DNA of 50,409 nt from a virus. The stretch spans positions 1 through 50,409 of the IMG/VR virus record IMGVR_UViG_3300029266_002412. The stretch is one strand, 5' to 3'. A program made the translations under genes and the position numbers. Shown here in pieces: positions 1,217 to 20,810 of this stretch (its first letter is position 1; each line of letters starts with the position of its first letter). The notes beneath the pieces are model-generated. The model was not told the DNA's origin. It did no database searches and saw only the letters and a list, made by a program, of their open reading frames with translations.

Positions 1217-1461
1217 TAATTAACTCTTACTTTGAGTCCTTTTATTTCTGTAAGGAACTCTTCAACTGTCAATGTTTTACCTTTTTCAGTTTTTATTTTT
1301 ACATCAGGCAATATCTCTGGCTGCCTGTCTACCATTTTCATCAATGTTTTTAATCCACTACCTGCCCAGAAAACTCCAAAGCCTGTATTTTCACCTAGTA
1401 TGTTAGAATCAAAGTGTACATCTTTTTCACTATCACCTGGAAGCATTATGAAATATGTCAT
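1216..1461 (-). CDS. Small unknown protein, 81 aa
   Basis: This 81-residue protein begins MTYFIMLPGDSEKDVHFDSN and ends TEIKGLKVRVN. It has a glycine-rich central stretch (LGENTGFGVFWAGSGL) followed by a lysine-rich amphipathic C-terminal half. Similar short proteins with FWAGSGLKTL-like cores occur beside structural or sugar genes in marine T4-like phages, but I cannot name a family. Its start overlaps the stop of the dehydrogenase-like gene by four bases (ATGA), and its stop overlaps the next start, placing it in the same coupled transcript as the sugar cluster. Function unknown. Confidence 0.6.
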   Translation of the reverse strand: MTYFIMLPGDSEKDVHFDSNILGENTGFGVFWAGSGLKTLMKMVDRQPEILPDVKIKTEKGKTLTVEEFLTEIKGLKVRVN

Positions 1462-2195
1462 TTCGATTCTTCTTTGTTTGCGTATTCCATAATAAGATCA
1501 AGTGCTTTGCTTTCGAACTCCTTTTGAAGCAGCTCTGTGTTTGCTATAACGCAATGGCCGCCTATCCCATTTTCTGGTGGGTATAAATTAGGCCGTACAA
1601 CGTTTTGCATATCTAGTCCCATATAACCTATGTTATAAGAAAGAGTCCACTTATTAATAACATCAAAATCTATATTATATTTGTCACACATCTTTTTCAT
1701 TTCACCATGCCAAGCTATACAAAGACCGTAGTATGTAGTACTTGTTAGCTTTGCTAGCTCTGAAGAATCTGAGTTCTCTACAGGATAAAATATAATCTCT
1801 AAGCTTTCGTAGTGCTCTTTTGCAAGTGCTAAATCAACTGAATTGTTATAACCTATAAACTTAACAAACTTTTCTATCCCTTCTTTCAAGTTTGGATGTA
1901 TACCTCTTACAGGTGAGTGTACAACAGGCCTAGATATCTGCTTTGTTGTTCCTACAGGCACTGTTGAGTGAATTATTGTTAATTTTGGTAAATACAAGTC
2001 GATATAACTATTGACTGTACTTATGAAGTTTTCTCCATAAGGCAAACATATATCTAATATGTCTATCTTTCCATGTATTGTATTTACGTTTAGATCTCTT
2101 ATCATAGGCACAAGACCTTTTTCTTGATATACCTTTGCTAGTGAGGATCCTATCTCACCGTATCCTATTATTCCTACTCTTGTTTTATCTTCCAT
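1458..2195 (-). CDS. UDP-glucose/GDP-mannose dehydrogenase-like NAD(P)-binding protein
   Basis: The N terminus TRVGIIGYGEIGSSLAKVY is a classic GxGxxG Rossmann nucleotide-binding loop. A mid-chain IIHSTVPVGTTKQI motif is typical of nucleotide-sugar dehydrogenases and 6-phosphogluconate-dehydrogenase-like proteins, and a central helical segment (SSELAKLTSTTYYGLCIAW) matches their second domain. At 245 residues it is much shorter than UDP-glucose dehydrogenases (about 400+), and I see no convincing catalytic Cys in the usual place; the C-terminal GIGGHCVIANTELL looks like the GxGGxC signature shifted into this short form. It lies at the promoter-distal end of the ADP-heptose genes and overlaps hldE-C by 11 bases. 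It probably acts on a nucleotide sugar or small sugar acid in the cytoplasm, substrate unknown. Confidence 0.75.
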   Translation of the reverse strand: MEDKTRVGIIGYGEIGSSLAKVYQEKGLVPMIRDLNVNTIHGKIDILDICLPYGENFISTVNSYIDLYLPKLTIIHSTVPVGTTKQISRPVVHSPVRGIHPNLKEGIEKFVKFIGYNNSVDLALAKEHYESLEIIFYPVENSDSSELAKLTSTTYYGLCIAWHGEMKKMCDKYNIDFDVINKWTLSYNIGYMGLDMQNVVRPNLYPPENGIGGHCVIANTELLQKEFESKALDLIMEYANKEESK

Positions 2196-2571
2196 TTAAT
2201 ATCTCCGTTGTTGAATATCCTTCTATTTTTTCAAAAAATCTTACGTGTTGTGCATGAGCTTCACCTATAACTGTTTTGTTCTTCCAGTCGTCGCCTACGA
2301 TCAAAACGTGTGGTTTAACATGCTTTACAATGCTGTCTAAAGCATCTTCATCGTTGAAAACATATACTTTATCTATGTACTTTATAGATTTTAGCAATTC
2401 TACTCTATCTTCTAACTTGTTGAAAGGTCTATTGTCACCTTTATCTTTTTTAATTTTATCATCAGAATCTATACCTACGTATAATTCTGTACCTAAACTT
2501 TTTGCATATTTAAAAAGCTCTATATGTCCTCTGTGTAGTATATCAAAACAACCATTTGTCCAAACTATCAT
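2185..2571 (-). CDS. hldE: HldE C-terminal-type adenylyltransferase (heptose-1-phosphate nucleotidyltransferase)
   Basis: A 128-residue single-domain cytidylyltransferase-like protein. WTNGCFDILHRGHIELF at residues 4-20 contains the HxGH nucleotide-binding motif (HRGH), and GYSTTEILN near the C terminus is the family's second signature (usually xSTTxLI). Gly-Asp-Asp-Trp-Lys (GDDWK) sits where TagD/HldE enzymes carry their substrate loop. In HldE this domain transfers AMP to D-glycero-beta-D-manno-heptose 1-phosphate to give ADP-heptose. Here it is a separate gene immediately after the kinase (4-bp overlap), so bifunctional HldE is split in two. Glycerol-3-phosphate cytidylyltransferase is an alternative, but the kinase and epimerase neighbours favour heptose. 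Confidence 0.85.
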   Translation of the reverse strand: MIVWTNGCFDILHRGHIELFKYAKSLGTELYVGIDSDDKIKKDKGDNRPFNKLEDRVELLKSIKYIDKVYVFNDEDALDSIVKHVKPHVLIVGDDWKNKTVIGEAHAQHVRFFEKIEGYSTTEILNGR

Positions 2572-3290
2572 ATCGTAACCACTCCTCTTTTCTGTACAAC
2601 TTCAGAAGCGCATTTGTTTGCAAAATCTATTGAATTGCTTATAAGCTTTGTATCAACGTATTTATATACAAGACCTGCAAGAAAAGTATCACCTGCACCT
2701 GAAACATTGGAAACCTTTACAGGATCAGTTTCATATGTGCTGTCTCTATATGTTGCACCTCTAGATCCTTTTGTGACTATAACATTACTATGAGAATACT
2801 CTTCGTTAATAATCCATTCAGGTTCGTTTATTTTAATAAAGCTAATTTTCTCACACCAAGCACCTAGTTTCTTTTTTGTATCTAAAAATGTAGGACACTT
2901 ACATTCTTCTGCAATAATCTTAATCATTGATTTTGTTAAAAATCCTTTGTTATAATCGGATATTACAACTGCATCAAATTTATATTGTTTAAGATATTTT
3001 ATAAAATCAACTTCACACTCAGCTGCAGAATCGTTTTCATCGAATCTCATAATCATCTGGCCTGATTTCTCATCTATATATCTTGTCTTTTTTATTGGTG
3101 AGTGATTTGTTATTATATATGTTTCACAGCTTAATGACTTAAAGTTTTCAACAACATTAGCTGCCATGCCAGGATTCTCTGTCTCACTTACAGGATTTAA
3201 CACTGGTACTGGCGCCTCGGGACAGAGTCTGTTTATATCACAATAAATAAATTTATCAATACAGCTATCACCTACAACTAATATTCTCAT
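2568..3290 (-). CDS. hldE: HldE N-terminal-type heptose-7-phosphate kinase (PfkB/ribokinase family)
   Basis: The protein starts MRILVVGDSCIDKFIYCD, then CPEAPVPVLN and NPGMAANVVENF, matching HldE kinase (usually CPEAPVPV and GGAANVA). The C-terminal NVSGAGDTFLAGLVYKY is the PfkB signature 2 with its catalytic GAGD aspartate. It is 240 aa against about 310 for the HldE kinase domain, so compact but carrying both ends of the fold. Expected reaction: phosphorylation of D-glycero-D-manno-heptose 7-phosphate at O1. It overlaps the cupin gene and the adenylyltransferase by four bases each. No GmhA isomerase or GmhB phosphatase is seen in the window, so the host may supply those steps or they may lie elsewhere. 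Confidence 0.87.
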   Translation of the reverse strand: MRILVVGDSCIDKFIYCDINRLCPEAPVPVLNPVSETENPGMAANVVENFKSLSCETYIITNHSPIKKTRYIDEKSGQMIMRFDENDSAAECEVDFIKYLKQYKFDAVVISDYNKGFLTKSMIKIIAEECKCPTFLDTKKKLGAWCEKISFIKINEPEWIINEEYSHSNVIVTKGSRGATYRDSTYETDPVKVSNVSGAGDTFLAGLVYKYVDTKLISNSIDFANKCASEVVQKRGVVTI

Positions 3291-3649
3291 TGACTATCTC
3301 CTTTTCTAATTCTATAACTATCGCTATCAAAATGCTCAGTTGATACTTCAAATATTTCTGAATTATCTTCTAAAGCAATAAGCTGGTGTGGCTGTCCTCT
3401 TTCTATAGTTAAGCACGTACCTACTTCTATAATTCTTGAACACTCTCTTGCCTTTTCAGTATCAATCCATTTATATTCAAAGCTTCCTCTACCAACATAC
3501 CAAGATTCTTTTTTAATTACATGATAATGCATTGAAAACATATTTCCTTTTTTACTAAACCTTAAAAGCTTTCCGCAATATTCTTCATCGTTATGAATCC
3601 ATATTTCTTCACCCCAAGCTTTTTCTACTATTTTAGGTTTTACTATCAT
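3287..3649 (-). CDS. Mannose-6-phosphate isomerase-type cupin
   Basis: A 120-residue cupin. KAWGEEIWIHNDEEYCGKLL at the N terminus is the KPWGxE-like signature of type II mannose-6-phosphate isomerase/cupin domains. SMHYHVIKKESWYVGRG provides the HxH...E metal-binding set, and ERGQPHQLIAL supplies the late histidine of the second cupin box. In its family such single-domain cupins isomerise or bind phosphosugars, and also occur as the C-terminal domain of mannose-1-phosphate guanylyltransferases. Lying between a GT9 transferase and the heptose kinase, it probably acts on a sugar phosphate feeding the heptose or GDP-mannose route. The exact substrate is not readable. Confidence 0.8.
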   Translation of the reverse strand: MIVKPKIVEKAWGEEIWIHNDEEYCGKLLRFSKKGNMFSMHYHVIKKESWYVGRGSFEYKWIDTEKARECSRIIEVGTCLTIERGQPHQLIALEDNSEIFEVSTEHFDSDSYRIRKGDSQ

Positions 3650-4431
3650 AATAATATCTCCATTCTTTTTTTAACTTCGTTAACTTCAGGATTCCAAGAT
3701 GGTGATGTTATGTATTCCATTTCAGTACCATGAGGATTCCAATCTTTTTTATATCTGTATGTATTGTTTTCGACTCCCCAAGCTATGTGCTTGAGTCCGC
3801 AAAGAGATGCCAAATGCATAGGGCCTGATGAAGGGCCTATGATCAAATCGGCACTTGACATATAATCACATAGCTCTGATAGTGGAGTATCTCTAAGATC
3901 TACTGTTCCTTCTATGTGTTCAGATGCTGCCTTTAATCCTATACTAGCAAATTTATATTCATCAAAGCTATCTATAATTTCTTTAAACTTTGTATAATCC
4001 CAGTTTCTTATATCAGTACCTACCTTATCTGTATGTCTTGCGTGTATGAGAATGTATTTTTCTTTTGTAGGTTTTCCGTATTTTATAAAACTTTGCTCCA
4101 ATCTAGGGTTCCATACAGATCTGTCTTGTTCTATTGAAGGTGTATAGTGTGTTAAACAATGATTAGGTGGTATATATACACTGCCTTTTTCAGGCATGGG
4201 ATAATTTTCTATCTTAGATCTATTAAAAAATGAGTCAGGTTGATATCCGCTAGGTGAGTAAGGAATATACTCATCGCAAAAGTCTTCATAAAGAAACTTA
4301 TTTATTTCTCTTCCTGATACTATAACTTTTTTAAAATTATTTTTTTCAACGTATCTTCTTAATACTCCTTGCCAGCAAAATAATTCCCAACCAAATTCTC
4401 CAACCCAAGGTCCTGCAAATAGTGTTTTCAT
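3646..4431 (-). CDS. GT9-like (heptosyltransferase-type) glycosyltransferase
   Basis: A 261-residue GT-B-like protein. The N terminus (MKTLFAGPWVGEFGWELF) suits the acceptor domain, and the C-terminal half has ILIHARHTDK followed by SADLIIGPSSGPMHLASLCG. The latter is the GT9 donor-binding signature (family form: D-x-G-x-x-H-L-A), here with SSGPMHLA. GT9 enzymes transfer heptose from ADP-heptose. The gene is directly upstream of a cupin and HldE-type genes and follows the HldD-type epimerase, so ADP-heptose is the likely donor. A promoter-like element precedes its ATG by only a few bases, marking the start of a transcription unit for the heptose genes. The acceptor is unknown. Confidence 0.8.
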   Translation of the reverse strand: MKTLFAGPWVGEFGWELFCWQGVLRRYVEKNNFKKVIVSGREINKFLYEDFCDEYIPYSPSGYQPDSFFNRSKIENYPMPEKGSVYIPPNHCLTHYTPSIEQDRSVWNPRLEQSFIKYGKPTKEKYILIHARHTDKVGTDIRNWDYTKFKEIIDSFDEYKFASIGLKAASEHIEGTVDLRDTPLSELCDYMSSADLIIGPSSGPMHLASLCGLKHIAWGVENNTYRYKKDWNPHGTEMEYITSPSWNPEVNEVKKRMEILL

Positions 4432-4435
4432 ATAT

Positions 4436-4462
4436 CTAATATAACAAATTTTTATGAATTAA
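4436..4462 (-). promoter_or_regulatory. Shared phage promoter-like element (site J)
   Basis: Minus strand reads TTAATTCATAAAAATTTG followed by TTATATTAG, ending a few bases before the ATG of the GT9-like gene at 4431. It matches the consensus TATGTCA-N8-TTTGTTATATTAG seen before ten other genes. The site overlaps the end of the upstream epimerase gene. Confidence 0.55.
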
Positions 4463-5234
4463 GTAAATATTTTTTGTATTTTTTTGTGCCTATTTTTACA
4501 TCACAAAGCGGCTTCCAGCCTGGCATAAACTTTTTATTATCTGCTTGTGTAAAATACTGATACCAACTTGGTATTTTATCTTTGCTGTGGTATTCGTAAG
4601 GAATGTCCATGCCTTCTACTAGGCTTTGAAATGAAGCAGCTTTACCAGTACCAACATCAAAAACCCCTCTTTCTAGCGTTGCTGCATGTATGTTTGCTCT
4701 CACTACATCATCAACAAAAATAAAGTCTCTTTTTATATCACCAGGGAATAACTTAAACTTCTTTGCTTTATAAGCTTGGTATGCGATTGATGCCATCTTG
4801 CCTTTGTTTTCTTCACCAGGCCCATAGACATTGAAATATCTAAGAGCTACAAACTTTTTACAAGCTTTCAATCCATATTCTTCTGCCAATAACTTTGACC
4901 AACCATATATGTTAGTAGGTATACCGTTTCCTGTTCCATAATTTGCTGCTGAGCTTGAGTAAACAACTTTTACATCATATTTTCTTGCTAAATCAAATAT
5001 AATCTTACTTGAATTATAATTACACTCTAACATCTCGTTACAATCTTGAAGTTCTGTATCGGATATTGCTCCTACGTGAAATATAACGTCACACTGCTTT
5101 ATTATAGCTTCTATATCTTTATAGTTTACATCATCGTTCCTTTCTATACAGTTAACGTGATATCCTTTTGATTTCAATGCTTTTAATAAGTTTGAACCTA
5201 TAAATCCTTTATGCCCTGTTAGTAATGCTCTCAT
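4452..5234 (-). CDS. hldD: ADP-heptose 6-epimerase-like NAD-dependent sugar epimerase
   Basis: I use the ATG at 5234 (MRALLTGHKGFIGSNLL), which overlaps the preceding stop as ATGA and places the GxxGFIG Rossmann loop at the very N terminus; an in-frame ATG at 5255 would add seven residues. An extended-SDR YxxxK appears as YGWSKLLAEEYG. ALRYFNVYGPGEENKGKMAS, RDFIFVDDVV and the late FTQADNKK closely follow HldD (family form NVYGPxExHKGxMAS ... YTQAD). HldD converts ADP-D-glycero- to ADP-L-glycero-D-manno-heptose. At 260 aa it is shorter than E. coli HldD (310). The adjacent HldE-type genes and GT9 transferase support the assignment. Confidence 0.85.
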   Translation of the reverse strand: MRALLTGHKGFIGSNLLKALKSKGYHVNCIERNDDVNYKDIEAIIKQCDVIFHVGAISDTELQDCNEMLECNYNSSKIIFDLARKYDVKVVYSSSAANYGTGNGIPTNIYGWSKLLAEEYGLKACKKFVALRYFNVYGPGEENKGKMASIAYQAYKAKKFKLFPGDIKRDFIFVDDVVRANIHAATLERGVFDVGTGKAASFQSLVEGMDIPYEYHSKDKIPSWYQYFTQADNKKFMPGWKPLCDVKIGTKKYKKYLLNS

Positions 5235-5932
5235 ATTCCTTTTATTATCTTCCATCGTTTTTTATCCAATATCATTTGCTCTAATTTTGATTTAACACCA
5301 CCTTCGAAAATTCCAGCCCCACCGTAGTGTATTGCATGAGACATAAATCTGTTAGCACTGCTGTTCCATTCTTCTGAAAACATTGTCATATGATTCCACT
5401 TATAAGATAGTTCGTGTACATCATATCCGTACTTGTTTATTAAATAGCCCATGTGAACATCATCATAACCAAATCCTGTCCAGTATTCTCCATTTATCGT
5501 TTCATATATGTTACTGTGACACTTTGACGTAAGAAAAAAAGCTGAATCCATATAGCCTTCACTCCAACCTACGTTTCCCCACTTTGATTGAGCTTGCTGC
5601 ATGCAATGCTGTCTAGCTAACTTCCTTGTGCCTTTATCTTCATAGACAGTTGCAATGCTATCATAAGGCACTATGTTAAAGATATTAGGACAGTCTGGTG
5701 CAAGTAAAACATCTGAATCTATATGAAGTATTCTATCGTATTTTTCATGTAATTCTTTATGTTTAAATATTCTATAATGCCATTTTCCGTCACCATCATT
5801 ACAGTCTGATTTGTGACTCATCACTTTAAATTCTGCTCCAACCTTTTTAGCGTATTCCTGTATTATTGGATGAGTAATATCTGTCCAATCTTTTATGCCT
5901 TCATCGGCACGAGTCGTAATTAGTAGTTTCAT
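5231..5932 (-). CDS. GT-A-fold glycosyltransferase, GT8-like
   Basis: A 233-residue protein with LHEKYDRILHIDSDVLLAPD near residue 70: the DSD is the DxD motif that binds the divalent metal and nucleotide sugar in GT-A enzymes. Upstream lies KWHYRIFKHKELHEKY, and a later GFGYDDVHMGYLINKYGY resembles the acceptor-side segment of GT8- or galactosyltransferase-like proteins. No signal peptide or membrane segment is present, so a cytoplasmic enzyme is expected. It is coupled by four-base overlaps to both the epimerase and the Gfo/Idh/MocA gene. Donor and acceptor cannot be read from sequence. Confidence 0.75.
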   Translation of the reverse strand: MKLLITTRADEGIKDWTDITHPIIQEYAKKVGAEFKVMSHKSDCNDGDGKWHYRIFKHKELHEKYDRILHIDSDVLLAPDCPNIFNIVPYDSIATVYEDKGTRKLARQHCMQQAQSKWGNVGWSEGYMDSAFFLTSKCHSNIYETINGEYWTGFGYDDVHMGYLINKYGYDVHELSYKWNHMTMFSEEWNSSANRFMSHAIHYGGAGIFEGGVKSKLEQMILDKKRWKIIKGI

Positions 5933-6861
5933 TTTATTATTCTGTCCATAAACTTTAGTCGTGATATTGTATTTAATTCTTTTTTGTAAAGATCTCTTGT
6001 GTTAGCTGATATGAAAAATCTAATCATACTTTCAAATTGATCTGATTTATCTATCTCAAAATACTCTGTACTTCCATTCTGTATGATGTGTATTGGATTA
6101 GTGCAGTCAGGTGTTCTAGAAAATACTCTTTCTGCTTTCATTGTTTCGTATTCACTTGATATTGTTATTTCATTTCTGTATGCCTGGCCGAAGCCAAAAT
6201 TAATAACTGCAGTAGAATCAGGATAAGCCATCATTATAGTACCTTTTTCTACAACTTCGTCTTCTATAAAATTATAATAGCAATCTTCGTAGCTTTTACC
6301 TAGTATTCTTTGTACAAAACTTAAAGGATATATAAGTGAATCGTGTATAGAGCCACCGCCTAAAGCTTTTTTGTATCTAATATCGTCTTTGTCTTCAAAA
6401 TAAGGAAAGTTAAATGTTGCATCTACATATTTTACACTGCCCATGCTTTCCAACAAAATGTCTATTTTCTTTTGTACAGGATGGAATTCGTACATCAAAG
6501 CCTCCATACATTTTAAATTTCTATTTTCTGCAATGTTAAATAGCTCTATTGCATCAGGTGCATTTGTTGTAAATGTCTTTTCCATAAGCAGATGCTTGCC
6601 GGAAAGTAGCACTTTCTTTCCCCATTCGTAATGTAAGCCTGGTGGCAATGAAACGTATATCATATCAACGTCACTTGCTAAAAGCTCTCCATAAGTATAT
6701 GGGTTTGTATGATATTCAAACCCCCAGCCAATTGCTTTGTTTATATCTCTAGAAGCAACACCAGATAGTTCAACTCCTTCTATTTTTTTTATTGCAGGTA
6801 TAACGCACCTTTTAGCTATTGACGAACAACCTAATATTCCTATTTTCATTTTTTTATACAT
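5929..6861 (-). CDS. Gfo/Idh/MocA-family NAD(P)-dependent oxidoreductase
   Basis: MKIGILGCSSIAKRCVIPAI is the N-terminal GxGxxA-like Rossmann loop; VYVSLPPGLHYEWGKK and HLLMEKTFTTN give the conserved EKP-type catalytic lysine region (here EKT). ALMYEFHPV is the family's YxxRxxP-like segment. Two starts are possible: ATG at 6861 (MYKKMKIG), used here, or ATG at 6849 directly before KIGILG. In deoxysugar pathways this family includes the 3-ketoreductases that act after NDP-hexose 2,3-dehydratase. A dehydratase of that type is encoded immediately upstream, so reduction of an unstable 3,4-diketo sugar to a 2,6-dideoxy sugar is the most coherent role, by inference. Confidence 0.83.
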   Translation of the reverse strand: MYKKMKIGILGCSSIAKRCVIPAIKKIEGVELSGVASRDINKAIGWGFEYHTNPYTYGELLASDVDMIYVSLPPGLHYEWGKKVLLSGKHLLMEKTFTTNAPDAIELFNIAENRNLKCMEALMYEFHPVQKKIDILLESMGSVKYVDATFNFPYFEDKDDIRYKKALGGGSIHDSLIYPLSFVQRILGKSYEDCYYNFIEDEVVEKGTIMMAYPDSTAVINFGFGQAYRNEITISSEYETMKAERVFSRTPDCTNPIHIIQNGSTEYFEIDKSDQFESMIRFFISANTRDLYKKELNTISRLKFMDRIIK

Positions 6862-7609
6862 GAGCTATAATGCTTCTTAAACAATGACCAACCCAAGCAT
6901 CTTGCTTGCAGCATTCTTTTATTTGATGTAAACTCATCCAGATAAAGTTTTCATTAACAATATCTACTTCTTGTGTTTCGTCAACCTCAACTATCATGTT
7001 TAGATTTCTTTTGTTATACAACCTTCCGCCGTCTTCAGCCAACCATTTCTTATAATGAACCTTGCCTACTTCATCGCCTTGAAAAAAGTTAAGGTAGTTA
7101 GGCACATTGCCTAAATGAGCTGCCTTTATGTTGCTGAATGTTGCCTGTAAAGTAGGGCTAATCTGTACCATGTTAGGATTGCCAGGTTCGCATTTAGCTT
7201 CAACCAAATAATGAGGTACACCATCAAACCTTTTTCTTAGCACTCCTAATATGCCGCCGTCCCAACCTGTCTGCTTTATTATAGGCTGGTCCCATCCACC
7301 TTTACATTCTCTTATATCAGTTTCGACTCTTAAGCCTAATATAGAGAAAAACTCTCCACTTTCATGGTCTATGCTTCCTTCGTCAATATTCCATTTTCTA
7401 CATTCACTTAATGGGATTTCTCTAACTGTCATCTCCTTCTTGTTAACGACACCTTGATACCACCATTGTATTTCTTGGAATGTATGCAATGTAGACCAGT
7501 CTTTTAATCCTTCAAAGTTAAATTCAAGTTCATCTGAATAGCATTCTATTCCTAAGTTTTTAACGCTGTTTTTATATTCTAAAAACTTTTCTTTATAATC
7601 GTTTTTCAT
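6854..7609 (-). CDS. NDP-hexose 2,3-dehydratase-like protein, half-length
   Basis: A 251-residue protein resembling one repeat of NDP-hexose 2,3-dehydratases (EvaA, SpnO, TylX3 type). Visible signatures are GGWDQPIIKQ, VPHYLVEAKCEPGNPN and VQISPTLQATFSNIKA; the EPGN and SPTxQAT motifs are the most diagnostic. Family members are usually about 450-480 aa with two similar halves, so this is a single-unit version that may dimerise to rebuild the site; that is inference. The reaction removes water across C2-C3 of a 4-keto-6-deoxyhexose. The neighbouring Gfo/Idh/MocA, DegT and 4,6-dehydratase genes match the expected pathway. It overlaps the next gene by eight bases. Confidence 0.83.
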   Translation of the reverse strand: MKNDYKEKFLEYKNSVKNLGIECYSDELEFNFEGLKDWSTLHTFQEIQWWYQGVVNKKEMTVREIPLSECRKWNIDEGSIDHESGEFFSILGLRVETDIRECKGGWDQPIIKQTGWDGGILGVLRKRFDGVPHYLVEAKCEPGNPNMVQISPTLQATFSNIKAAHLGNVPNYLNFFQGDEVGKVHYKKWLAEDGGRLYNKRNLNMIVEVDETQEVDIVNENFIWMSLHQIKECCKQDAWVGHCLRSIIAHV

Positions 7610-8520
7610 AGTTTTTTTGCTTCGCTTATAACGTCATTAATATCTATTTTATTACACCCAGCAGGATTTCTTTCTACAAACATAACTTTAGAATTTTTAT
7701 TTATAGGTGTTACTGAAGAAGGATTTTTATCGTGGCCATACATCCAATACGTTTCTAGTGTTATACCTGGATGTTGGTATGCTCCCATGATCCAAACAGG
7801 GCCTGTGCTTGCAGCAATATAAAATTCTGATGCTAGTGCTGCTTTTATCTGTTGAAAGAAAGACATATATGTAAGTTTTTTATAATTTTTTGAATCATGC
7901 AATCTAGGTTCGCTGTCCATACCATAATGAAATACTGTATAGCCGTCAGCTATTAATTTTGTTATCAACGAATTCCACCATTTTTCTGAAGGACATCTGC
8001 CAACTTCTTTACCGGCTCCTGTAAAAGGCCAGATTGCAATATTTTTATTAAAATAATCTAAGTTTATATTATTATTTTTACTATATGTACCTTGAATCTG
8101 ATTTTCAAATCCAACATCGAACCATTTTTCTAACTTGGGCTTCATTTCTTCGTCTGATAGATAGTCTTTCATGTCATATATTCCGTGCATATGTGCAGTT
8201 TCTTCTACAAGATTGTAATTATTAAACCAATCTTTGCTAGTATGCTTATCATTTGCAGCATCGTCTACTACTATATCACATTGAGATATTAATTTCTTAT
8301 CATAGTCACCTAGCTGTTCACTACTCCATCCATCAGTTATTTTTATTCTATCAATTAAGGGATGGTTGAAAAATATAGGCGCAATGAATGAAACTTTTTT
8401 CTCTATAAGCCAGTATTTATAACTACCTGGGTACTTTCTTTCAAAATATAATAACGTAGGGAGTGCACAGATTGAATCGCCAACTAAGCCTCCCATACAA
8501 GTCCAAATTTTTTTATTCAC
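7606..8520 (-). CDS. GT9-like glycosyltransferase (heptosyltransferase family)
   Basis: A 304-residue protein beginning KIWTCMGGLVGDSICALPTLLYF, the GxxGDxxxxLP N-terminal motif of ADP-heptose:LPS heptosyltransferases. The C-terminal domain has IAIWPFTGAGKEVGRCP, typical of GT9 donor-binding strands, then ALASEFYIAASTGPVWIMGA, equivalent to the family's ...DSGxxHLA... loop with the usual His replaced by Trp. This may shift donor or reduce activity. It is one of two GT9-like genes in the cluster and overlaps its neighbours by 4-8 bases. ADP-heptose is the expected donor, but other activated sugars made by this cluster are possible. Confidence 0.75.
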   Translation of the reverse strand: MNKKIWTCMGGLVGDSICALPTLLYFERKYPGSYKYWLIEKKVSFIAPIFFNHPLIDRIKITDGWSSEQLGDYDKKLISQCDIVVDDAANDKHTSKDWFNNYNLVEETAHMHGIYDMKDYLSDEEMKPKLEKWFDVGFENQIQGTYSKNNNINLDYFNKNIAIWPFTGAGKEVGRCPSEKWWNSLITKLIADGYTVFHYGMDSEPRLHDSKNYKKLTYMSFFQQIKAALASEFYIAASTGPVWIMGAYQHPGITLETYWMYGHDKNPSSVTPINKNSKVMFVERNPAGCNKIDINDVISEAKKL

Positions 8521-9151
8521 GGTTTACAGTCTCACAATCTTTAAACAAATCAAAGCTTCTTAAATCAGGATAATAAGGTTCGTTTTCAAATGAATCCTCA
8601 TTAGGTATATCTTTCTTAAATCTAGGGTAATTCGACATAAGAGTTAAACCTCTTGCTGCTTGCTCAGGTGTCATATATGCATTCCAACCTATAGTCTTTA
8701 TATTATCTTCGTGCATATATACTTCACCTCTTCCTTCATATCTTGCTCGCTTTGCAAAGTCTACAAGATTTTGATCATCAGTAATAATCATGCCTCCTTT
8801 GCCTATAGGTAAGTGCTTTTTAATATGAAAAGAAAGACACATTATAGAATCTTTTATATACATGTTTGATGTAAGTCTTTTTGCAGCGTCATAAAGCGGA
8901 TAAGGTTCAAGCTGGTATATACCTTCCCATTTATAATCTCTAAACTTTACAGACCCACCTGCGTGGATTATAGATTGCGGTACTGATAGGTAAGTTCGTG
9001 GTGGTATTGTTACCTCCTTTACTTTTAAATACTTTGCAGCAATCATTATCGCGTCAGTACAGCTGTCTGTAGCTATAGCATATTTAGAACCACAGTAATC
9101 TGCAATGTTTTCTTCAAACATTCTTACTATTTTATACGGGTTGTGTATCAT
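8513..9151 (-). CDS. DegT/DnrJ/EryC1/StrS-type sugar aminotransferase, short form
   Basis: A 212-residue protein with the N-terminal PLP domain of sugar aminotransferases: SKYAIATDSCTDAIMIAAKY (usual form ...GTdAL...), LYDAAKRLTS with the PLP-binding Asp-Ala, and SFHIKKHLPIGKGGMIITDD with the internal Schiff-base lysine and following GGxxxT. YEGRGEVY and YMTPEQAARG continue the fold. Full-length members are 370-400 aa, so the C-terminal small domain is missing or replaced by about 35 acidic residues. Compact forms like this are common in phages but may be inactive alone. Together with the 4,6-dehydratase and 2,3-dehydratase, an amino or dideoxy sugar product is suggested. Confidence 0.8.
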   Translation of the reverse strand: MIHNPYKIVRMFEENIADYCGSKYAIATDSCTDAIMIAAKYLKVKEVTIPPRTYLSVPQSIIHAGGSVKFRDYKWEGIYQLEPYPLYDAAKRLTSNMYIKDSIMCLSFHIKKHLPIGKGGMIITDDQNLVDFAKRARYEGRGEVYMHEDNIKTIGWNAYMTPEQAARGLTLMSNYPRFKKDIPNEDSFENEPYYPDLRSFDLFKDCETVNRE

Positions 9152-9362
9152 TATTTTCTTCCGGGAATACTTCTATACATAAAACATTTTCATCGTTAAC
9201 CATTATCATAGTTCCATCATCACATTCAAATTTAGAAAACTGGCCTTGTTTAAGACTGTCAGTTCTTATACCATGAAAAGTTCTTTTAACGCCTCCTACA
9301 AAATGTATTATCTGAGTTACGTACTTGCCTTTTTCTATTATTGTTGACTTTAAATTTATCAT
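9132..9362 (-). CDS. Small unknown protein, 76 aa
   Basis: A 76-residue beta-rich protein, MINLKSTIIEKGKYVTQIIH through CDDGTMIMVNDENVLCIEVF, ending EENNDTQPV. Alternating hydrophobic strands and the late VNDENVLCIEVFPE look like a small beta barrel or sandwich; no catalytic motif is visible. It lies between the 4,6-dehydratase and the aminotransferase, overlapping the former by four bases and the latter by 20, so it is translated with the sugar pathway. Many T4-like marine phages carry a similar-sized conserved hypothetical near structural genes, but I cannot assign a family. Confidence 0.65.
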   Translation of the reverse strand: MINLKSTIIEKGKYVTQIIHFVGGVKRTFHGIRTDSLKQGQFSKFECDDGTMIMVNDENVLCIEVFPEENNDTQPV

Positions 9363-10330
9363 GATAATTTTTCAACCCAGTAGTTTAACAAATCATTCAT
9401 AGTTTTTTCTATAGATATTTTAGGTTCCCAACCTGTATGTTCTTTTAGTAAGCTTGAATCTCCTACCTGTACTTGTATATCTATTTCTCTATAGTAAGGC
9501 TTGTATATTTCTTGCTTTATATCTTCATAAGGTATACCCGACGCTTTAATTAAGCAGTCTGTATAGTATTGCATTTTCTGGATTTCATCACCACAAACAT
9601 TATAGACTTTACCATTACTTTTTTCTGTCATCATCAAAAGATAATATGCATTAACGCAATCTCTTACATCTATAACAACTCTTTCAGTTTCAAGATTACC
9701 TATCTTCAAAACCTTGTCTTGTAAACCTAATTTCATTTTTGCAATCTGGTAAGCATCAGAGCTAATACTAAATATCTTACCTCGTCTTTCACCTGTATGG
9801 CTGAATGCTCTTGTTACAAATCCATTCAACTTCTTGTTTGCAAATCTTTCTTGAAGGTATATATCAATAGCAGCTTTAGAAGCACCATAAGGATTTGCTG
9901 GCAATATCTTGCCATCTGTATGTAATTTGGTGCCGTCACACGTATCACCATACACTTCCGATGTACTACAGAACATTAGCTTTGTTTCTGTGTTCTCTAA
10001 CAATGTTATTATATTCATAGTAGCTGTAACATTATCATTCCAAGTCATTATCGGGTCTGTAAAGCTTGTTGGTGGGTGACTTTGAGCAGCTAAGTGAAAT
10101 ACACCATCAAAGTTTTGTGAAAGCACTTTTTCTACTCCCATATAATCTTTTAAATCTGCATAGTGGAATTGTATTTTCTCTATTTCTTCAACAGACATAA
10201 TATCTACCAAATCCATTTCTCTACCATTAGCAGTTCTTATAATACCATGAACCTCGTGCCCTTCTTTTAACAATAGCTTTGCTAAATGAGGACCTGCAAA
10301 ACCTGTTATTCCTGTTACTAAAAATTTCAT
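9359..10330 (-). CDS. gmd: GDP-mannose 4,6-dehydratase/4-reductase-like SDR enzyme
   Basis: A 323-residue extended SDR: MKFLVTGITGFAGPHLAKLL is the NAD(P)-binding GxxGxxG, FHLAAQSHPPTSF the AAQSHV-like loop of GMD, MFCSTSEVYGD and NPYGASKAAIDIY the S...YxxxK triad, and FVTRAFSHTGERRG the family's RxFNHxGPRRG substrate loop. The length fits GMD/RMD enzymes. Expected reaction: GDP-D-mannose to GDP-4-keto-6-deoxymannose, or the subsequent 4-reduction; sequence alone does not separate the two. A good Shine-Dalgarno (AAGGAGA) and a promoter-like element lie upstream. This would be the entry step for the deoxysugar genes downstream on the same transcript. Confidence 0.85.
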   Translation of the reverse strand: MKFLVTGITGFAGPHLAKLLLKEGHEVHGIIRTANGREMDLVDIMSVEEIEKIQFHYADLKDYMGVEKVLSQNFDGVFHLAAQSHPPTSFTDPIMTWNDNVTATMNIITLLENTETKLMFCSTSEVYGDTCDGTKLHTDGKILPANPYGASKAAIDIYLQERFANKKLNGFVTRAFSHTGERRGKIFSISSDAYQIAKMKLGLQDKVLKIGNLETERVVIDVRDCVNAYYLLMMTEKSNGKVYNVCGDEIQKMQYYTDCLIKASGIPYEDIKQEIYKPYYREIDIQVQVGDSSLLKEHTGWEPKISIEKTMNDLLNYWVEKLS

Positions 10331-10358
10331 ATTCTTTCTCCTTTTTAATTTGTATATT

Positions 10359-10384
10359 ATAATATAAGCATTTTTCTTGACATA
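10359..10384 (-). promoter_or_regulatory. Shared phage promoter-like element (site H)
   Basis: Minus strand reads TTATGTCAAGAAAAATG then CTTATATTAT, about 30 bases before the GMD-like start at 10330. It matches TATGTCA-N8-TTTGTTATATTAG except at TTTG (ATGC), and it occupies the only gap in this part of the cluster. Confidence 0.5.
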
Positions 10385-10390
10385 AAAAAA

Positions 10391-10996
10391 TTATACTGTA
10401 TCTATGTACTTAATTTTTGATTTTTTATTTTTTAGTTCGCTGAAGTATTTCTCTCCAACCCACCAATCTTCCCAAGGTTCCCATATACTATTACCTTTGT
10501 TGTCATATTTTTCTGTACCATCTGTAAGTACGTCTTCAAACAACATCTTATATCCTGAAGCTTCAAGTATTTTTATAGAATCTTTCTTTCTTGCATCTGT
10601 AACTTCTGAATCTGCATATGAATCGTGTTCAAATGTCATAAAATCAAATGTATAGCCATTAGAGATTAAGAGCTCTAGACAAGGTATCGAAGCATCATCA
10701 ACATCAAGCGATATATAGTCGAAGTGTTTTACATTTGATTTAGCATCTAAAATTTCTATAAAACTCTGTACAGTAACGTCTGCTTTTATGCATTCGTTTC
10801 GTCTATCTGATTTGTTAAATAGATCTATCCATCTCTGTTGAAAATCTACTGATATACCTTTCCACCCTAACCACTCTAATGCTGCTGTGTTATTTCCTTC
10901 AAAAGGGTGGTGGCTACCTAGATCTAAATAACATCCTCTGCCTCCAATTAGTTTATGTGCAAACTTATCTTGAAATTCTTTAGCGTAATATTGCAT
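10391..10996 (-). CDS. FkbM-like SAM-dependent methyltransferase
   Basis: A 201-residue protein with GRGCYLDLGSHHPFEGNNTA, the glycine-rich SAM-binding motif I of FkbM-family methyltransferases (family form: ...vDiGAhxGxxS...), then GWKGISVDFQQ (acidic end of strand beta-2) and DYISLDVDDASIPCLELL, the conserved catalytic/SAM-proximal segment (usually ...D.E..E...L). FkbM enzymes O-methylate sugars or polyketides. Located among glycosyltransferases, it is likely to cap or decorate the glycan this cluster makes. It overlaps the upstream glycosyltransferase by 17 bases. Acceptor unknown. Confidence 0.8.
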   Translation of the reverse strand: MQYYAKEFQDKFAHKLIGGRGCYLDLGSHHPFEGNNTAALEWLGWKGISVDFQQRWIDLFNKSDRRNECIKADVTVQSFIEILDAKSNVKHFDYISLDVDDASIPCLELLISNGYTFDFMTFEHDSYADSEVTDARKKDSIKILEASGYKMLFEDVLTDGTEKYDNKGNSIWEPWEDWWVGEKYFSELKNKKSKIKYIDTV

Positions 10997-11801
10997 TCGC
11001 CCACTCCGTTCTTGTTAAATTAGTTACTTTACTTAATCCTCTATTAGCAATTGTATCTCGAGTATAACTTCTGCTTAGATAGAATTCTATTTTATCTTGC
11101 AAATCTTCTATGTCCTTATATATTACCAAGTCTTCTCCATCAACTAACCCTGTAAGTTCTCTACCGTGCCAGTCATCTGTAAGTAAAAAACCTCCAGCTG
11201 CAAGTACTTTATATATTCTATCAGAAGCACAGTTATCTGTGCATATATTAAGATTTATTTTAGTCTTACCTACCTCGATTGAATGTTGCAACCCGTATGC
11301 TGATGATATTATATTTACATTTTCTAAGCGATCTAGCATACTGCTTCTGTTACCATAGACATTACCTATGAATGAAATATCGTATTGTTTTTTTACGTTT
11401 TGAACAATATCAACTGACTCGTCATATCCTTCACATACGTAATAGCTTTCCTTGTTATATTTCTTAGCTAGCTCTAATGTCTTAGGTTTGTCAAAAAATG
11501 ATTTATCACTGTAATATGTTTTCATAGCCATTTCAGATGTAAATGTTTGAGCAGGATCCATAAACCAATATATTATTTTTTTATTGTTTTTCTTCAACTC
11601 CTTCATTGTATATTCTGAAACGCCATTTCCTTTTGCAATTAGAATGATGTCATAGTCTTTCTTTTCCTGAAGTTTTAAATTGAAATTATTTTCTGATCTG
11701 TAAGAAAATTCTTCTACATCATGACCCAAGCCTTTAAGCGAATCTCTCTGAGAATTGTTTGTTGAGCCTTCTGTGAATACACCTATGAACAATATTTTCA
11801 T
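10980..11801 (-). CDS. CgeB-like/GT-B glycosyltransferase
   Basis: A 273-residue GT-B-like protein: MKILFIGVFTEGSTNNSQR opens the acceptor domain, KKIIYWFMDPAQTF resembles the hinge strand of CgeB/YkvP proteins, and YDISFIGNVYGNRSSMLDRL followed by INLNICTDNCASDRIYKVLA and AGGFLLTDDWHGRE gives the C-terminal donor domain (family form: ...R.fEa.a.G...lt......). CgeB-like proteins are glycosyltransferases found in spore and phage glycosylation loci. It overlaps both neighbours. No membrane segment is present. Donor and acceptor are unreadable. Confidence 0.75.
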   Translation of the reverse strand: MKILFIGVFTEGSTNNSQRDSLKGLGHDVEEFSYRSENNFNLKLQEKKDYDIILIAKGNGVSEYTMKELKKNNKKIIYWFMDPAQTFTSEMAMKTYYSDKSFFDKPKTLELAKKYNKESYYVCEGYDESVDIVQNVKKQYDISFIGNVYGNRSSMLDRLENVNIISSAYGLQHSIEVGKTKINLNICTDNCASDRIYKVLAAGGFLLTDDWHGRELTGLVDGEDLVIYKDIEDLQDKIEFYLSRSYTRDTIANRGLSKVTNLTRTEWANAILR

Positions 11802-12619
11802 ATTTCTGAATATATTCTTTTTAGTGTTTCTTCTACCTTTATTTCTAAAAAAGATATAAGTTCAATTCCTTTATATTTTCCAAACCATTCTTCGTATGTA
11901 CAACCTACTCTATTATCAGTCTTTACTTTTAAGCCTAGCATTCTCGCTTCTAAAACTAATCTGCAGCAAGATTCGAATGCATGAGAAAAAAACACGATTC
12001 CTTGATATTTAGAAATGGTTTCTATAAGTTCCTTCCATTGACAGTTTTTAACATAATCATAAGGTATTGCTTGAGTCTCACAAAGTTGTATTGCTTTATT
12101 GCTTCTCTTACCTGGAACTATGCACCATTTAGAATCTTTATTTTCTTTATACATTTTTCTTATATGGTCGAATTGATCTTGTGAAAACTGAGTACAACCT
12201 AGCGTTTCGATATTTTCTATATCTAGATGCATGTTCATTATCTCTGCCTGTTTATGAGTAAGACAGAATACCTTTTTCGCATGAGAGTAAAATGATTTAT
12301 TAACAACTTTTGATTGAGGTGCAATAAAGCCATCATACATAGCTGTGTTTCTAGTATCAACGTACTTCTGATCACGCTCGATTATTATATATGTTGCTGA
12401 TTCCTGAAACCACAGCTTAGATTCTTCACTAAGTCCTGCAAAGTTAGAAATGATAAAAACATCAGCCTTATGTATATTCGGGCTAAACGTTTGACTTTTG
12501 ACAGTTTTCAAATTAACGCCTTTTTCTTTCAGATATTTTATAACTACTCCATCTGATAGCTCTGCACCTCCTATTATTTCATCTTCAAAAAAGTCTGATA
12601 TGTATATTATGTTCTTCAT
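11798..12619 (-). CDS. Glycosyltransferase, GT4-like (short)
   Basis: A 273-residue protein opening MKNIIYISDFFEDEIIGGAELSD, the GGxE loop typical of GT4 acceptor domains. Mid-chain VFCLTHKQAEIMNMHLDI matches the hinge helix region, and IVFFSHAFESCCRLVLEARMLGLKV contains an E...E-like donor site (family form E-G-x-P..E-A-x-A-x-G), here FESCCRLVLEARMLG. It is shorter than usual GT4 enzymes (about 350-400). It overlaps the CgeB-like gene by four bases, so the two are coupled and may act on consecutive sugars. Donor unknown. Confidence 0.75.
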   Translation of the reverse strand: MKNIIYISDFFEDEIIGGAELSDGVVIKYLKEKGVNLKTVKSQTFSPNIHKADVFIISNFAGLSEESKLWFQESATYIIIERDQKYVDTRNTAMYDGFIAPQSKVVNKSFYSHAKKVFCLTHKQAEIMNMHLDIENIETLGCTQFSQDQFDHIRKMYKENKDSKWCIVPGKRSNKAIQLCETQAIPYDYVKNCQWKELIETISKYQGIVFFSHAFESCCRLVLEARMLGLKVKTDNRVGCTYEEWFGKYKGIELISFLEIKVEETLKRIYSEI

Positions 12620-12624
12620 GTTTG

Positions 12625-13071
12625 TTATCTTTTAATTATATCGTCGTCAAAATCATAATCGATGAGTTGTACCAGTCCCATCTTATTAAGAAATAACGTT
12701 CTGTAACCATTATTGTAAATTCTTTTCATATCTGATCTTAATGTACCTATATAGAATCTCATAGAAGATTGCTCCATTACAAGCTTTGGAATATCCAGAG
12801 CTCGCTTTTTATATCTAGGTATTTCTCTAATTCCAGTGTCTCTTGCAAGAGCATTGAAGTGTGTAGTAGAAAATTCATTTAGATTTAATACGTGTGTCAC
12901 GCCTCTAAATAAAGGATTCAATATTAAAAACATGTAGTTCTTTTTCTCACCTTCTCTGTTTTGGTACAAATTAGATACAACCATACCTTTCTGTAAATCT
13001 TTTTTAGGTATAATCAAACGTGAATTCATTTTCATCAAGTGTTGATTGTAGTAATTTGTGCTAGGTATCAT
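12625..13071 (-). CDS. Unknown phage protein, 148 aa
   Basis: A 148-residue protein with an N-terminal segment MIPSTNYYNQHLMKMNSRLI followed by KNYMFLILNPLFRGVTHVLN and a basic C-terminal half (RFYIGTLRSDMKRIYNNGYR). LNPLFRGVTHVLNLNEFS reads like conserved hypothetical proteins beside structural genes of marine T4-like phages, where some are called DNA-end or head-tail proteins. I cannot confirm that and make no functional claim. It sits between glycosyltransferase genes but shares no sugar-binding motif, suggesting it was inherited with the island rather than acting in it. Confidence 0.65.
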   Translation of the reverse strand: MIPSTNYYNQHLMKMNSRLIIPKKDLQKGMVVSNLYQNREGEKKNYMFLILNPLFRGVTHVLNLNEFSTTHFNALARDTGIREIPRYKKRALDIPKLVMEQSSMRFYIGTLRSDMKRIYNNGYRTLFLNKMGLVQLIDYDFDDDIIKR

Positions 13072-13550
13072 TATATATCGCCTAATGCAAAACCTTTAAC
13101 TTTCTTACAAGCCGCAAGGTATTCTACAAAAAACTCAGCCTTTGACATATCTACCTTAGATTCTATATCTGTGCCTTCCATTATATCATTGACACCTTCT
13201 GCTACTGGTGCATAGCACCATTTTATTTTTTCGTTACCTACAACTTCATCACCACTATGCAATGCAACTTTACCAGCAGGAAAAACAAAGCATTCTTTGG
13301 TCTGTATTGTTGCTGGGTACCAATATGATTCGCCATCGTCATATCTTAATGTTTTAACTATATCTGGCATTGAAGATTCATATTCCTCAATGTTAAAGTC
13401 CGGATGCTTCTTGTAATTTAATGGGAATTCGTTTGTATACATACCTGAGCTCAAGTCCATTCTTGAAACACCTGACTTTTCATCAAATTCTTGCAGTACC
13501 ATGTCTTTTCCTGTTATCGGACTCTTCGTCCATTCTTCATTATTATTCAT
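13071..13550 (-). CDS. Unknown phage protein, 159 aa
   Basis: A 159-residue acidic protein: EEWTKSPITGKDMVLQEFDE at the N terminus, RYDDGESYWYPATIQTKECF in the middle and SKAEFFVEYLAACKKVKGFA at the end. The N-terminal SPITGKDMVL has the look of a zinc-less ribbon or a small binding domain, but the cysteines are absent. No catalytic signature is seen. Its one-base overlap with the 148-aa gene and eight-base overlap with the GT4 gene show it is part of the same transcript. Proteins of this type accompany marine T4-like phage structural genes; function unknown. Confidence 0.65.
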   Translation of the reverse strand: MNNNEEWTKSPITGKDMVLQEFDEKSGVSRMDLSSGMYTNEFPLNYKKHPDFNIEEYESSMPDIVKTLRYDDGESYWYPATIQTKECFVFPAGKVALHSGDEVVGNEKIKWCYAPVAEGVNDIMEGTDIESKVDMSKAEFFVEYLAACKKVKGFALGDI

Positions 13551-14874
13551 ATGTTTGTAGCTCTTCTAGTTTAGGGATTTCAAATTCAGTACTAAACGAT
13601 GGTAAATATCTTTCTAGTATATCACCAAAGCTTTCTGTCATCTTTTCAAGTGAAAAGTTAACCTTCATGTACTGCGATTGTTTTCTTGTTTTTTCTAAAT
13701 GTTTTTTGTAGTTTTTATGTACGTCGTTCATCACACTAGCTGCAAACTGATAGTTTATGTAAAACCAATTTGATTCAGCAACTATTACTTCTTCCCATAC
13801 AACTGAAGGGTGAACTTGTCTTAACTCACCTTCCATAAGAATACCGTGTTCTGATAGAAAATCTACGTGTCCTGACCAACCTGGAGCAATTACTGGTTTT
13901 CCTGTTAATGAAAATTCAGCAAGAGGTCTACCATATCCTTCACCATGTGTAAAGCTTACCATAGCTTTTATTTTTGAATGGTTGTAAAGTGAATTCATTT
14001 CCTTATCAGTTAGATCTCCCCATACTATATATACATTAGGAACTCTTTTGTTTGCTTTAGCAAAATTATTTCTTAGGTCACTTATTTTCTTTTTAAGTAT
14101 TATTTCTTCTGGTACAGAAAAACCTATACCTGTTTTAATAACTAATGCAGGTTGGTTTCTAGAGGAAAGCTTTGTAAAAGTAGATAAGAACGTATGTATT
14201 GTTCCACCTACATCTTTTCTATCGTGAGTAAACTCTCCGTTCATCCAATGGCCACACAAGATAAAGCAAAAGTCTTCTTCTATAGAATCCAAAGTTTCAG
14301 CAACTGATTTTTCTATTTTTGATTTCTTATTGTAAACTTCAATATCCACACCTTCAAACAAAACTTCAATTGGTTTTGTGTTAGCTAGTGTTTCTACTAT
14401 TTTCTGTGTGTTCTGGTCTATCTTGTCGTAAGTGCATGTAAATGCTCTTGCAGAATGATTTGAAGGTACAATATTCATGTCCATTCTGTTCATTCCTTCT
14501 AACCACTGAGGTGAAACTCTGTCAGTCTCTATCCCTGCTGTAATTCCAATGTTATATTTACCTACAGCTTGGAATTCGTTAGGAACAGTAACCTGCATCC
14601 ATATATCTGGCTGGTTAGATATTTCTTGATTTGCTGTAGTTATGTCTAATATGTCTTTGTTTTCTTTTCTTGTTAATTCTGTACGAGGGCAAGTACCCCA
14701 TCTCTGATCCAAGACTTTTATATTAAACTTGTCTAATGCAATTAAACTTCTTATTAAATCTCTTGAGTGATTTCCATAGCCACTTCTACTAGATGCAGGA
14801 CAGCTAATTATTATTGTTGGTTTATTCTGATTCATATTATAGTACTCCTGTTGGATATATTGGTTCTGGTTCAT
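13543..14874 (-). CDS. GT4-family glycosyltransferase
   Basis: A 443-residue glycosyltransferase group 1 protein. SSRSGYGNHSRDLIRSL is the GxG acceptor-side loop; MNIVPSNHSARAF is the hinge helix; FCFILCGHWMNGEFTHDRKD begins the donor domain; and AMVSFTHGEGYGRPLAEFSL contains the EGxxxxxAE donor motif (HGEGYGRPLAE), followed by GKPVIAPGWSGHVDFL. These match GT4 retaining transferases closely. The protein is full length. It overlaps the next GT4 gene by 38 bases and is probably cytoplasmic. The donor sugar is not readable, but a GDP- or ADP-linked sugar made by the island is plausible. Confidence 0.88.
   Translation of the reverse strand: MNQNQYIQQEYYNMNQNKPTIIISCPASSRSGYGNHSRDLIRSLIALDKFNIKVLDQRWGTCPRTELTRKENKDILDITTANQEISNQPDIWMQVTVPNEFQAVGKYNIGITAGIETDRVSPQWLEGMNRMDMNIVPSNHSARAFTCTYDKIDQNTQKIVETLANTKPIEVLFEGVDIEVYNKKSKIEKSVAETLDSIEEDFCFILCGHWMNGEFTHDRKDVGGTIHTFLSTFTKLSSRNQPALVIKTGIGFSVPEEIILKKKISDLRNNFAKANKRVPNVYIVWGDLTDKEMNSLYNHSKIKAMVSFTHGEGYGRPLAEFSLTGKPVIAPGWSGHVDFLSEHGILMEGELRQVHPSVVWEEVIVAESNWFYINYQFAASVMNDVHKNYKKHLEKTRKQSQYMKVNFSLEKMTESFGDILERYLPSFSTEFEIPKLEELQTYE

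Positions 14875-18874: not shown

Positions 18875-20810
<1,936 letters not shown>

Follow-up and report, generated by a model that had tools for sequence, protein, structure and literature searches.

A phage glycan island with a single-repeat NDP-hexose 2,3-dehydratase and a compact DegT-family aminotransferase, predicted to serve amino-deoxysugar synthesis

The deoxysugar gene cassette considered here lies at positions 5929-10330 of IMGVR_UViG_3300029266_002412, a linear IMG/VR virus fragment of 50,409 bases (the window), within which all gene content was read. The window is tailed-phage-like, encoding a DnaE-type polymerase, a DnaB helicase, a UvsX-like recombinase and a single-stranded DNA-binding protein, along with a ribonucleotide reductase, GroEL and a baseplate-wedge-like protein. 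Four intact open reading frames (ORFs) on the minus strand, all above their Pfam gathering scores, specify an extended short-chain dehydrogenase/reductase (SDR) predicted to be a nucleoside diphosphate (NDP)-hexose 4,6-dehydratase, a compact DegT-family aminotransferase, a single-repeat NDP-hexose 2,3-dehydratase and a Gfo/Idh/MocA oxidoreductase (Table 1). An initial annotation had these four following one another on one transcript; their order and strand hold, and each ORF between 10330 and 5231 shares 4-25 bases with the next, which is consistent with cotranscription, but two further genes, for a 76-amino-acid (aa) and a 304-aa protein, lie among them. The proposal that the set corresponds to a 2,6-dideoxy or amino-deoxysugar pathway is supported by the family assignments and by the cassettes of relatives.

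The dehydratase has one of the two repeats usual in its family, as had been recognized at the outset. PF03559 matches the 251-aa protein as one domain at 212 bits (cut-off 25), over profile positions 3-202 of 203; there are no two tandem repeats in the chain, and no second PF03559 copy was found in the window record. The sole PDB match by sequence is EvaA, the TDP-hexose 2,3-dehydratase of Amycolatopsis orientalis (4j7g/4j7h; E 1e-58), to each of whose repeats the protein aligns separately, with 41% identity to the N-repeat. Its AlphaFold2 (AF2) model (pLDDT 91) has a Z score of 19.9 against residues 12-246 of the EvaA N-repeat, with 222 residues aligned; ordinary Nudix folds score far lower, at about 9. 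PF03559 and the same predicted fold are thus common to the window protein, EvaA and TylX3/SpnO/Gra27, whereas EvaA-type enzymes carry two repeats and the window protein one repeat plus an N-terminal extension. In EvaA, mutants of the pocket A residues E139 and E190 are inactive and pocket B mutants are active, and the second pocket has been described as an inactive remnant of gene duplication (PMC8987622). The corresponding glutamate pair, E141/E192 in the window protein, is retained in 15/15 single-repeat proteins. A complementary second half encoded elsewhere was ruled out, as genomes G011 (Ferrimonas), G013, G014 and G015 contain one PF03559 domain each and no second copy; genome G016 has a single-repeat gene plus a two-repeat gene. 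A broken gene was likewise ruled out for both compact proteins, because relatives of each are intact and of matching length and evolve under purifying selection, and on these sequence comparisons each is a conserved enzyme family.

Such gene sets are rare in phages, as had been supposed. A tblastn search of 50,697 phage records with the dehydratase returned no relative, and a single-sequence scan of IMG/VR gave no match, so that alignment-based scans were needed; the best of these, with the single-repeat alignment, found 27 contigs, of which 13 are single-repeat, most others are two-repeat and L190 (our locus number, as for other relatives below) is probably cut. The idea of a phage-specific reduction of the dehydratase did not survive, because the same clade occurs in bacteria. 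Scanning GTDB genomes with a PF03559 alignment identified 450 relatives. Eighty were kept, and five of these appear to have one repeat (L009-L013, ~254-263 aa, with an ambiguous start for L009); the other examined ones are of two-repeat length. Members of the clade are found in Gemmatimonadota, Actinomycetota and Pseudomonadota genomes. The repeat tree separates N-repeats (support 97/97), C-repeats (99/94) and single-repeat proteins (100/99; n=15, phages and bacteria), the same three groups as with an earlier set (99/96, 100/98, 100/100). The single-repeat proteins fall outside the two-repeat proteins, not inside them as a recent truncation would, and no two-repeat member lies inside their clade, although the tree is unrooted and alone does not prove the single form ancestral.

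The residues that distinguish the two repeats are mixed in the single-repeat proteins. Positions were called N-specific where conservation reached 95% or more in N-repeats and fell short of that in C-repeats, and in the first eight single-repeat proteins 19-20 of the 26 N-repeat-specific positions are kept (C-repeats average 4.2), as are 5-6 of 9 C-repeat-specific positions (N-repeats average 0.8). The N-type residues K139, P142, N144, H165 and K200 and the C-type residues R100, E101, G195 and R196 co-occur in 15/15. Because invariants otherwise confined to one repeat are combined in one chain, the simplest reading is that two identical chains, each performing both functions, would form a homodimer similar to the arrangement that preceded the duplication. 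It is a tentative further proposition that phages keep a large family of unusually compact (~200 aa) fold-type I pyridoxal phosphate (PLP)-dependent sugar aminotransferases lacking most of the customary C-terminal domain, to which we return below, and that the single-repeat dehydratase is the surviving pre-duplication ancestral form, its catalytic and remnant sites having been split between repeats only later. Alternatively, the C-repeat may have been lost very early from a two-repeat protein, a history that we regard as possible without expecting it: the single-repeat clade joins the N-repeat clade on a midpoint-rooted drawing, for which no outgroup fixes the root, but R100, E101, G195 and R196 are C-repeat invariants without counterpart in N-repeats, so that the protein is not derivable from a modern N-repeat, and the lack of two-repeat members within the clade also argues against such a loss. 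A living single-repeat clade with both residue sets offers a direct test of how the EvaA-type duplication divided the work. In the titles and abstracts searched, mostly of open-access papers with few subscription papers or preprints, neither single-repeat or phage 2,3-dehydratases nor a compact phage DegT is described.

The genes that accompany the 2,3-dehydratase are informative as to its function. Bacterial single-repeat genes sit in what look like complete cassettes, in the order DegT, single-repeat gene, Gfo/Idh/MocA, RmlA, RmlB in L009; DegT, single-repeat gene, GNAT, Gfo/Idh/MocA, RmlA, RmlB in L010; RmlB, RmlA, cupin, single-repeat gene, Gfo/Idh/MocA in L011; and single-repeat gene, Gfo/Idh/MocA, DegT in L013. 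The L009 RmlB exceeds its equivalog cut-off and the L009 and L010 GNATs exceed Pfam cut-offs, the other names resting on BLAST to homologues and sequence reading. In viral relatives the single-repeat gene is found with a C-methyltransferase and a full-length DegT (L177), with a C-methyltransferase, an RmlC-like gene and, further on, a Gfo/Idh/MocA gene (L186), or with an RmlC equivalog and an SDR (L182, whose relative L200 has an RmlB equivalog); L005 has an RmlC-like gene, an SDR and a full-length DegT. These partners match established uses of a 3,4-diketo-2,6-dideoxy intermediate, and because their spread fits those uses a genuine 2,3-dehydratase activity is predicted. The C-methyltransferase genes, of NDP-hexose C-methyltransferase type (Methyltransf_13 + Methyltransf_14), lie directly upstream of the single-repeat gene at 6830-7999 in L186 and 6869-8005 in L177, an arrangement that recalls branched antibiotic sugars; phages would thus carry branched deoxysugar pathways otherwise described for antibiotics.

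The aminotransferase is reduced to 212 aa from the usual ~370, with PF01041 matched at 88 bits (cut-off 19.8) in two stretches. It had been described as lacking its C-terminal domain; most of that domain is indeed missing, but so is an internal stretch of roughly 40 residues, and neither a complete large domain nor a complete C-terminal domain is found by profile or structure alignment. In the profile alignment to 3bn1, residues 9-66 correspond to 40-100 and 103-180 to 179-254, leaving ~42 internal and ~87 C-terminal residues without counterpart. The structure that the AF2 model (pLDDT 92) matches best is GDP-perosamine synthase, with 207 residues aligned at Z 19.5, and the fold-type I PLP core with its lysine and aspartate is common to GDP-perosamine synthase (3bn1, 3dr4), PseC, WecE, DesI and the compact protein. 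An alignment-based IMG/VR scan yielded at least 576 relatives, the best 80 of which were kept and combined with the window, L089 and three phage records (n=85). Lengths in this set are ~193-240 aa, fusions excepted, and K112 (the Schiff-base lysine), D88 (the aspartate facing the PLP pyridine), GG119-120, GR140-141 and Y159 are present in 85/85, several loci being near-duplicates, so that the counts are not independent events. Strong purifying selection on the compact proteins follows from a dN/dS of 0.02-0.17 in pairs with estimable dS. Cellular matches at E <= 1e-15 numbered 1/296 among the Bacteroidota genomes sampled (L174, where the gene adjoins acetyltransferase-like and glycosyltransferase-like genes) and 0/299 among Pseudomonadota, and the family appears largely viral, in agreement with the suggestion that this enzyme is phage-specific.

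An LbH/PglD- or GNAT-type acetyltransferase gene lies within two genes of the stand-alone compact DegT in 48/81 loci, directly adjacent 25 and 16 times as against 5 and 2 times at distance 3-7. In L100 a GNAT domain is fused to the compact DegT, apparently likewise in L103 (an ORF of matching length), and the GNAT of the bacterial L010 cassette is 56% identical to phage GNATs. Adjacency, fusion and the L010 GNAT therefore indicate formation of an amino sugar and then its N-acylation. This family, which is widespread in environmental phages, raises the question of the minimum that a fold-type I PLP enzyme requires, and compact enzymes of both kinds offer small tools for making rare sugars. Other fusions are seen in L162 (8012-10612) and L168 (7994-10612), where ORFs of 866-872 aa join glycosyltransferase- and FkbM-methyltransferase-like parts to the compact DegT; L167 has an ORF that agrees with these in length. 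Synechococcus phage S-SCSM2R (L003, 11998-15665) has an annotated inosamine amidinotransferase gene with a compact DegT gene a few genes further upstream, a pairing that suggests a guanidino-sugar on this cyanophage.

Close relatives were expected to have such genes, and a largely similar set is present in L089, L156, L186 and L201. On L089, a virus contig of 185 kb, the same island includes a compact DegT 79% identical to that of the window, a 3-ketoreductase 50% identical and an RmlA-like gene; L156 has a single-repeat dehydratase, a 3-ketoreductase, a compact DegT and HldE/HldD-like genes, and in neither was a dedicated 4,6-dehydratase seen. In L201 a compact DegT, a two-repeat dehydratase, a 3-ketoreductase, RmlB (431 bits, cut-off 365) and an RmlA-like gene fall within ~6 kb, in which no other aminotransferase was recognised. 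Flavobacterium phage immuto (MW353176) has a similar island with homologous glycosyltransferases (40-44%), 76-aa protein (59%) and compact DegT (38%), and differs in that 2,3-dehydratase and 3-ketoreductase homologues were not recognised in the 30.6 kb compared and in having an extra full-length transaminase gene. It follows from comparison of these four loci that the island is modular and its sugar cassettes interchangeable.

The remaining two enzymes of the cassette would supply the steps on either side of 2,3-dehydration. The SDR has the active-site motif T123-S124-E125 (T-x-E) with Y148 and K152 (Y-x3-K). It had been called GMD-like, which is right as to fold; at 119 bits against the cut-off of 415 it is not a member of the GMD equivalog TIGR01472, and since it reached no equivalog cut-off the family models gave no nucleotide, guanosine (GDP) or deoxythymidine diphosphate (dTDP). 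The Gfo/Idh/MocA protein (PF01408, 52 bits, cut-off 24) best matches the sugar 3-ketoreductase 3rbv/3rc1 (E 7.5e-37), which we take to be KijD10; the match covers nearly the whole length and includes the E-K motif, sequence identity is low, and C3 reduction by the window protein is a prediction. Its gene adjoins that of the 2,3-dehydratase in L009, L011, L013, L156, L089 and the L187-L198 group.

Family assignments, catalytic residues and predicted folds, together with conserved gene association and purifying selection, allow a pathway to be proposed in which the activities, their order, the substrate, the NDP carrier, the homodimer and the target are predicted. The SDR would convert an NDP-hexose to an NDP-4-keto-6-deoxyhexose, the homodimeric single-repeat dehydratase would eliminate the 2-OH to give a 3,4-diketo-2,6-dideoxy sugar, the Gfo/Idh/MocA enzyme would reduce C3 and the compact DegT would aminate C4 to yield an NDP-4-amino-2,4,6-trideoxyhexose, which island glycosyltransferases would then attach, most likely to a virion protein. 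A C4-amino product needs a 3-ketoreductase and EvaB-type C3 amination does not, so the presence of a separate 3-ketoreductase gene favours C4. The dTDP-forosamine and epivancosamine pathways of actinomycete antibiotic clusters follow the same logic of 2,3-dehydration and then 3-ketoreduction or amination, and the methylation of antibiotic deoxysugar pathways occurs in some viral relatives; unlike those pathways, that of the window is phage-encoded, with compact enzymes, ADP (adenosine diphosphate)-heptose-type genes and glycosyltransferases, and no antibiotic scaffold. An island at ~1458-16246, of roughly 20 genes including several for glycosyltransferases and HldE/HldD-like proteins, has the cassette at its centre, and on balance we favour the view that this island makes the NDP-4-amino-2,4,6-trideoxyhexose and probably ADP-heptose, and that soluble glycosyltransferases encoded within it transfer both, most likely onto virion protein.

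On a 19-residue Kyte-Doolittle scale none of the island proteins shows a hydrophobic segment above 1.6, so there is no sign of a flippase or polymerase, and soluble enzymes with no export machinery found favour a cytoplasmic acceptor such as a virion protein. The sugar might instead modify phage DNA or the host surface, there bringing about superinfection exclusion or a receptor change; this is a lesser but substantial possibility, as phages often alter host O-antigen or glycosylate DNA; against it, neither a flippase, a polymerase nor a lipid-linked initiator is predicted in the island, and the window yielded no confirmed base-hydroxymethylation enzyme. DNA hypermodification had been entertained from ThyX-like and thymidylate-synthase-like genes and was set aside, the matches being weak and the ThyX-like protein having no PDB match.

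Several observations weigh against the proposed pathway. The enzyme activities and the virion as target are predictions. In the window no sugar-1-phosphate nucleotidyltransferase was recognised except the HldE-like one, and the inferred 4,6-dehydratase activity and NDP specificity of the SDR rest on its TSE/Y/K motif. L089 has, in the corresponding place, a two-repeat dehydratase with its 79% identical compact DegT, and the pairing of the two compact enzymes is therefore not obligatory. Activity of the compact DegT is not assured, since the PLP domain is incomplete and the small domain largely absent, and where GDP-perosamine synthase-type enzymes of ~370 aa have N-x-R-M it has N-x-Y-M, tyrosine replacing the usual arginine. 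These gaps in the fold, and an RmlD-like SDR encoded at 26257-27321, might suit a non-catalytic relic or a regulatory or scaffold protein, the pathway ending in a neutral 2,6-dideoxyhexose whose C4 ketone is reduced by another SDR such as that one; with the catalytic lysine and PLP aspartate invariant in all 85 proteins, purifying selection strong and acetyltransferases adjacent or fused, we consider this improbable.

As to the nucleotide of the preferred pathway, the cues differ, the SDR being nearest to GDP-sugar enzymes and relatives carrying dTDP-glucose genes; GDP-mannose, named initially as the starting compound, is not established, dTDP-glucose genes being the neighbours of this 2,3-dehydratase step in bacteria. 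That the cassette acts on heptose, with a deoxyheptose as product and the SDR serving as heptose 4,6-dehydratase, is very unlikely despite the best PDB match of the SDR, the GDP-D-glycero-D-manno-heptose 4,6-dehydratase 7us5, and the ADP-heptose-type genes directly downstream, because HldE-type genes yield ADP- and not GDP-heptose, bacterial and L200 single-repeat dehydratases neighbour dTDP-glucose enzymes, and L089 and L201 combine the compact DegT and 3-ketoreductase with RmlA-like genes.

Table 1. Genes of the sugar cassette and of the surrounding glycan island in the window
Feature	Position	Strand	Size and evidence
Short UDP-glucose/GDP-mannose dehydrogenase-family protein	1458..2195	-	PF00984 31 bits, cut-off 25.4
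HldE adenylyltransferase-domain-like protein	2185..2571	-	TIGR02199 120 bits, under cut-off 181.5; phrog_7878
HldE kinase-domain-like sugar kinase	2568..3290	-	TIGR02198 134 bits, under cut-off 345
Cupin	3287..3649	-	phrog_7851; Cupin_2 weak
GT9-type (heptosyltransferase-like) protein	3646..4431	-	Weak: PF01075 20.9 bits, cut-off 22
HldD-like ADP-heptose 6-epimerase	4452..5255	-	TIGR02197 175 bits, under cut-off 274.6
GT8-type glycosyltransferase	5231..5932	-	PF01501 25.9 bits, cut-off 24.3
Gfo/Idh/MocA oxidoreductase, predicted NDP-sugar 3-ketoreductase (E94-K95)	5929..6861	-	310 aa; PF01408
Single-repeat NDP-hexose 2,3-dehydratase	6854..7609	-	251 aa; PF03559
304-aa protein	7606..8520	-	Kept in L089, L131, L166; no family match; glycosyltransferase-like by context only
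Compact ('mini') DegT/DnrJ/EryC1/StrS aminotransferase, predicted sugar 4-aminotransferase	8513..9151	-	212 aa; PF01041
Conserved 76-aa protein	9132..9362	-	No Pfam match
Extended SDR, predicted NDP-hexose 4,6-dehydratase	9359..10330	-	323 aa; PF16363 203 bits
Glycosyltransferase	10980..11801	-	PF13524 52 bits
Glycosyltransferase-like protein	11798..12619	-	Kept in 30 of the examined island loci; no solid Pfam match
Glycosyltransferase	13543..14874	-	phrog_2170 71 bits
GT4-type glycosyltransferase	14837..16246	-	PF00534 54.5 bits

The heptose branch lies at 2185-5255, where the HldE kinase-like and adenylyltransferase-like parts form two separate small genes with the HldD-like gene nearby; all three proteins match the expected families best and fall below the curated cut-offs. 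Homologues of the kinase occur in 14 and of the adenylyltransferase in up to 20 of the compact DegT island loci, and phage-made ADP-heptose may be common among such islands.

Of the two additional cassette genes, the 304-aa protein had been thought by eye to be GT9-like, an identity that no profile supports. Homologues of the 76-aa protein (76-80 aa) recur beside single-repeat 2,3-dehydratase genes in L156 (7089-7325), L180-L185 (L182, 7053-7295), L199 (3767-4003) and L200 (6972-7205); in phage immuto the homologue adjoins the full-length transaminase gene. At the edge of the island a small SLOG/DprA-like protein is encoded at 16463-16864, with a YspA-type match just below cut-off. The GroEL-type chaperonin (18875-20515) is full-length at 546 aa, and immuto also has one. 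At 28513-29451 a MazG/dUTPase_2-type domain is apparently fused to an NT5C/HAD-type nucleotidase domain.

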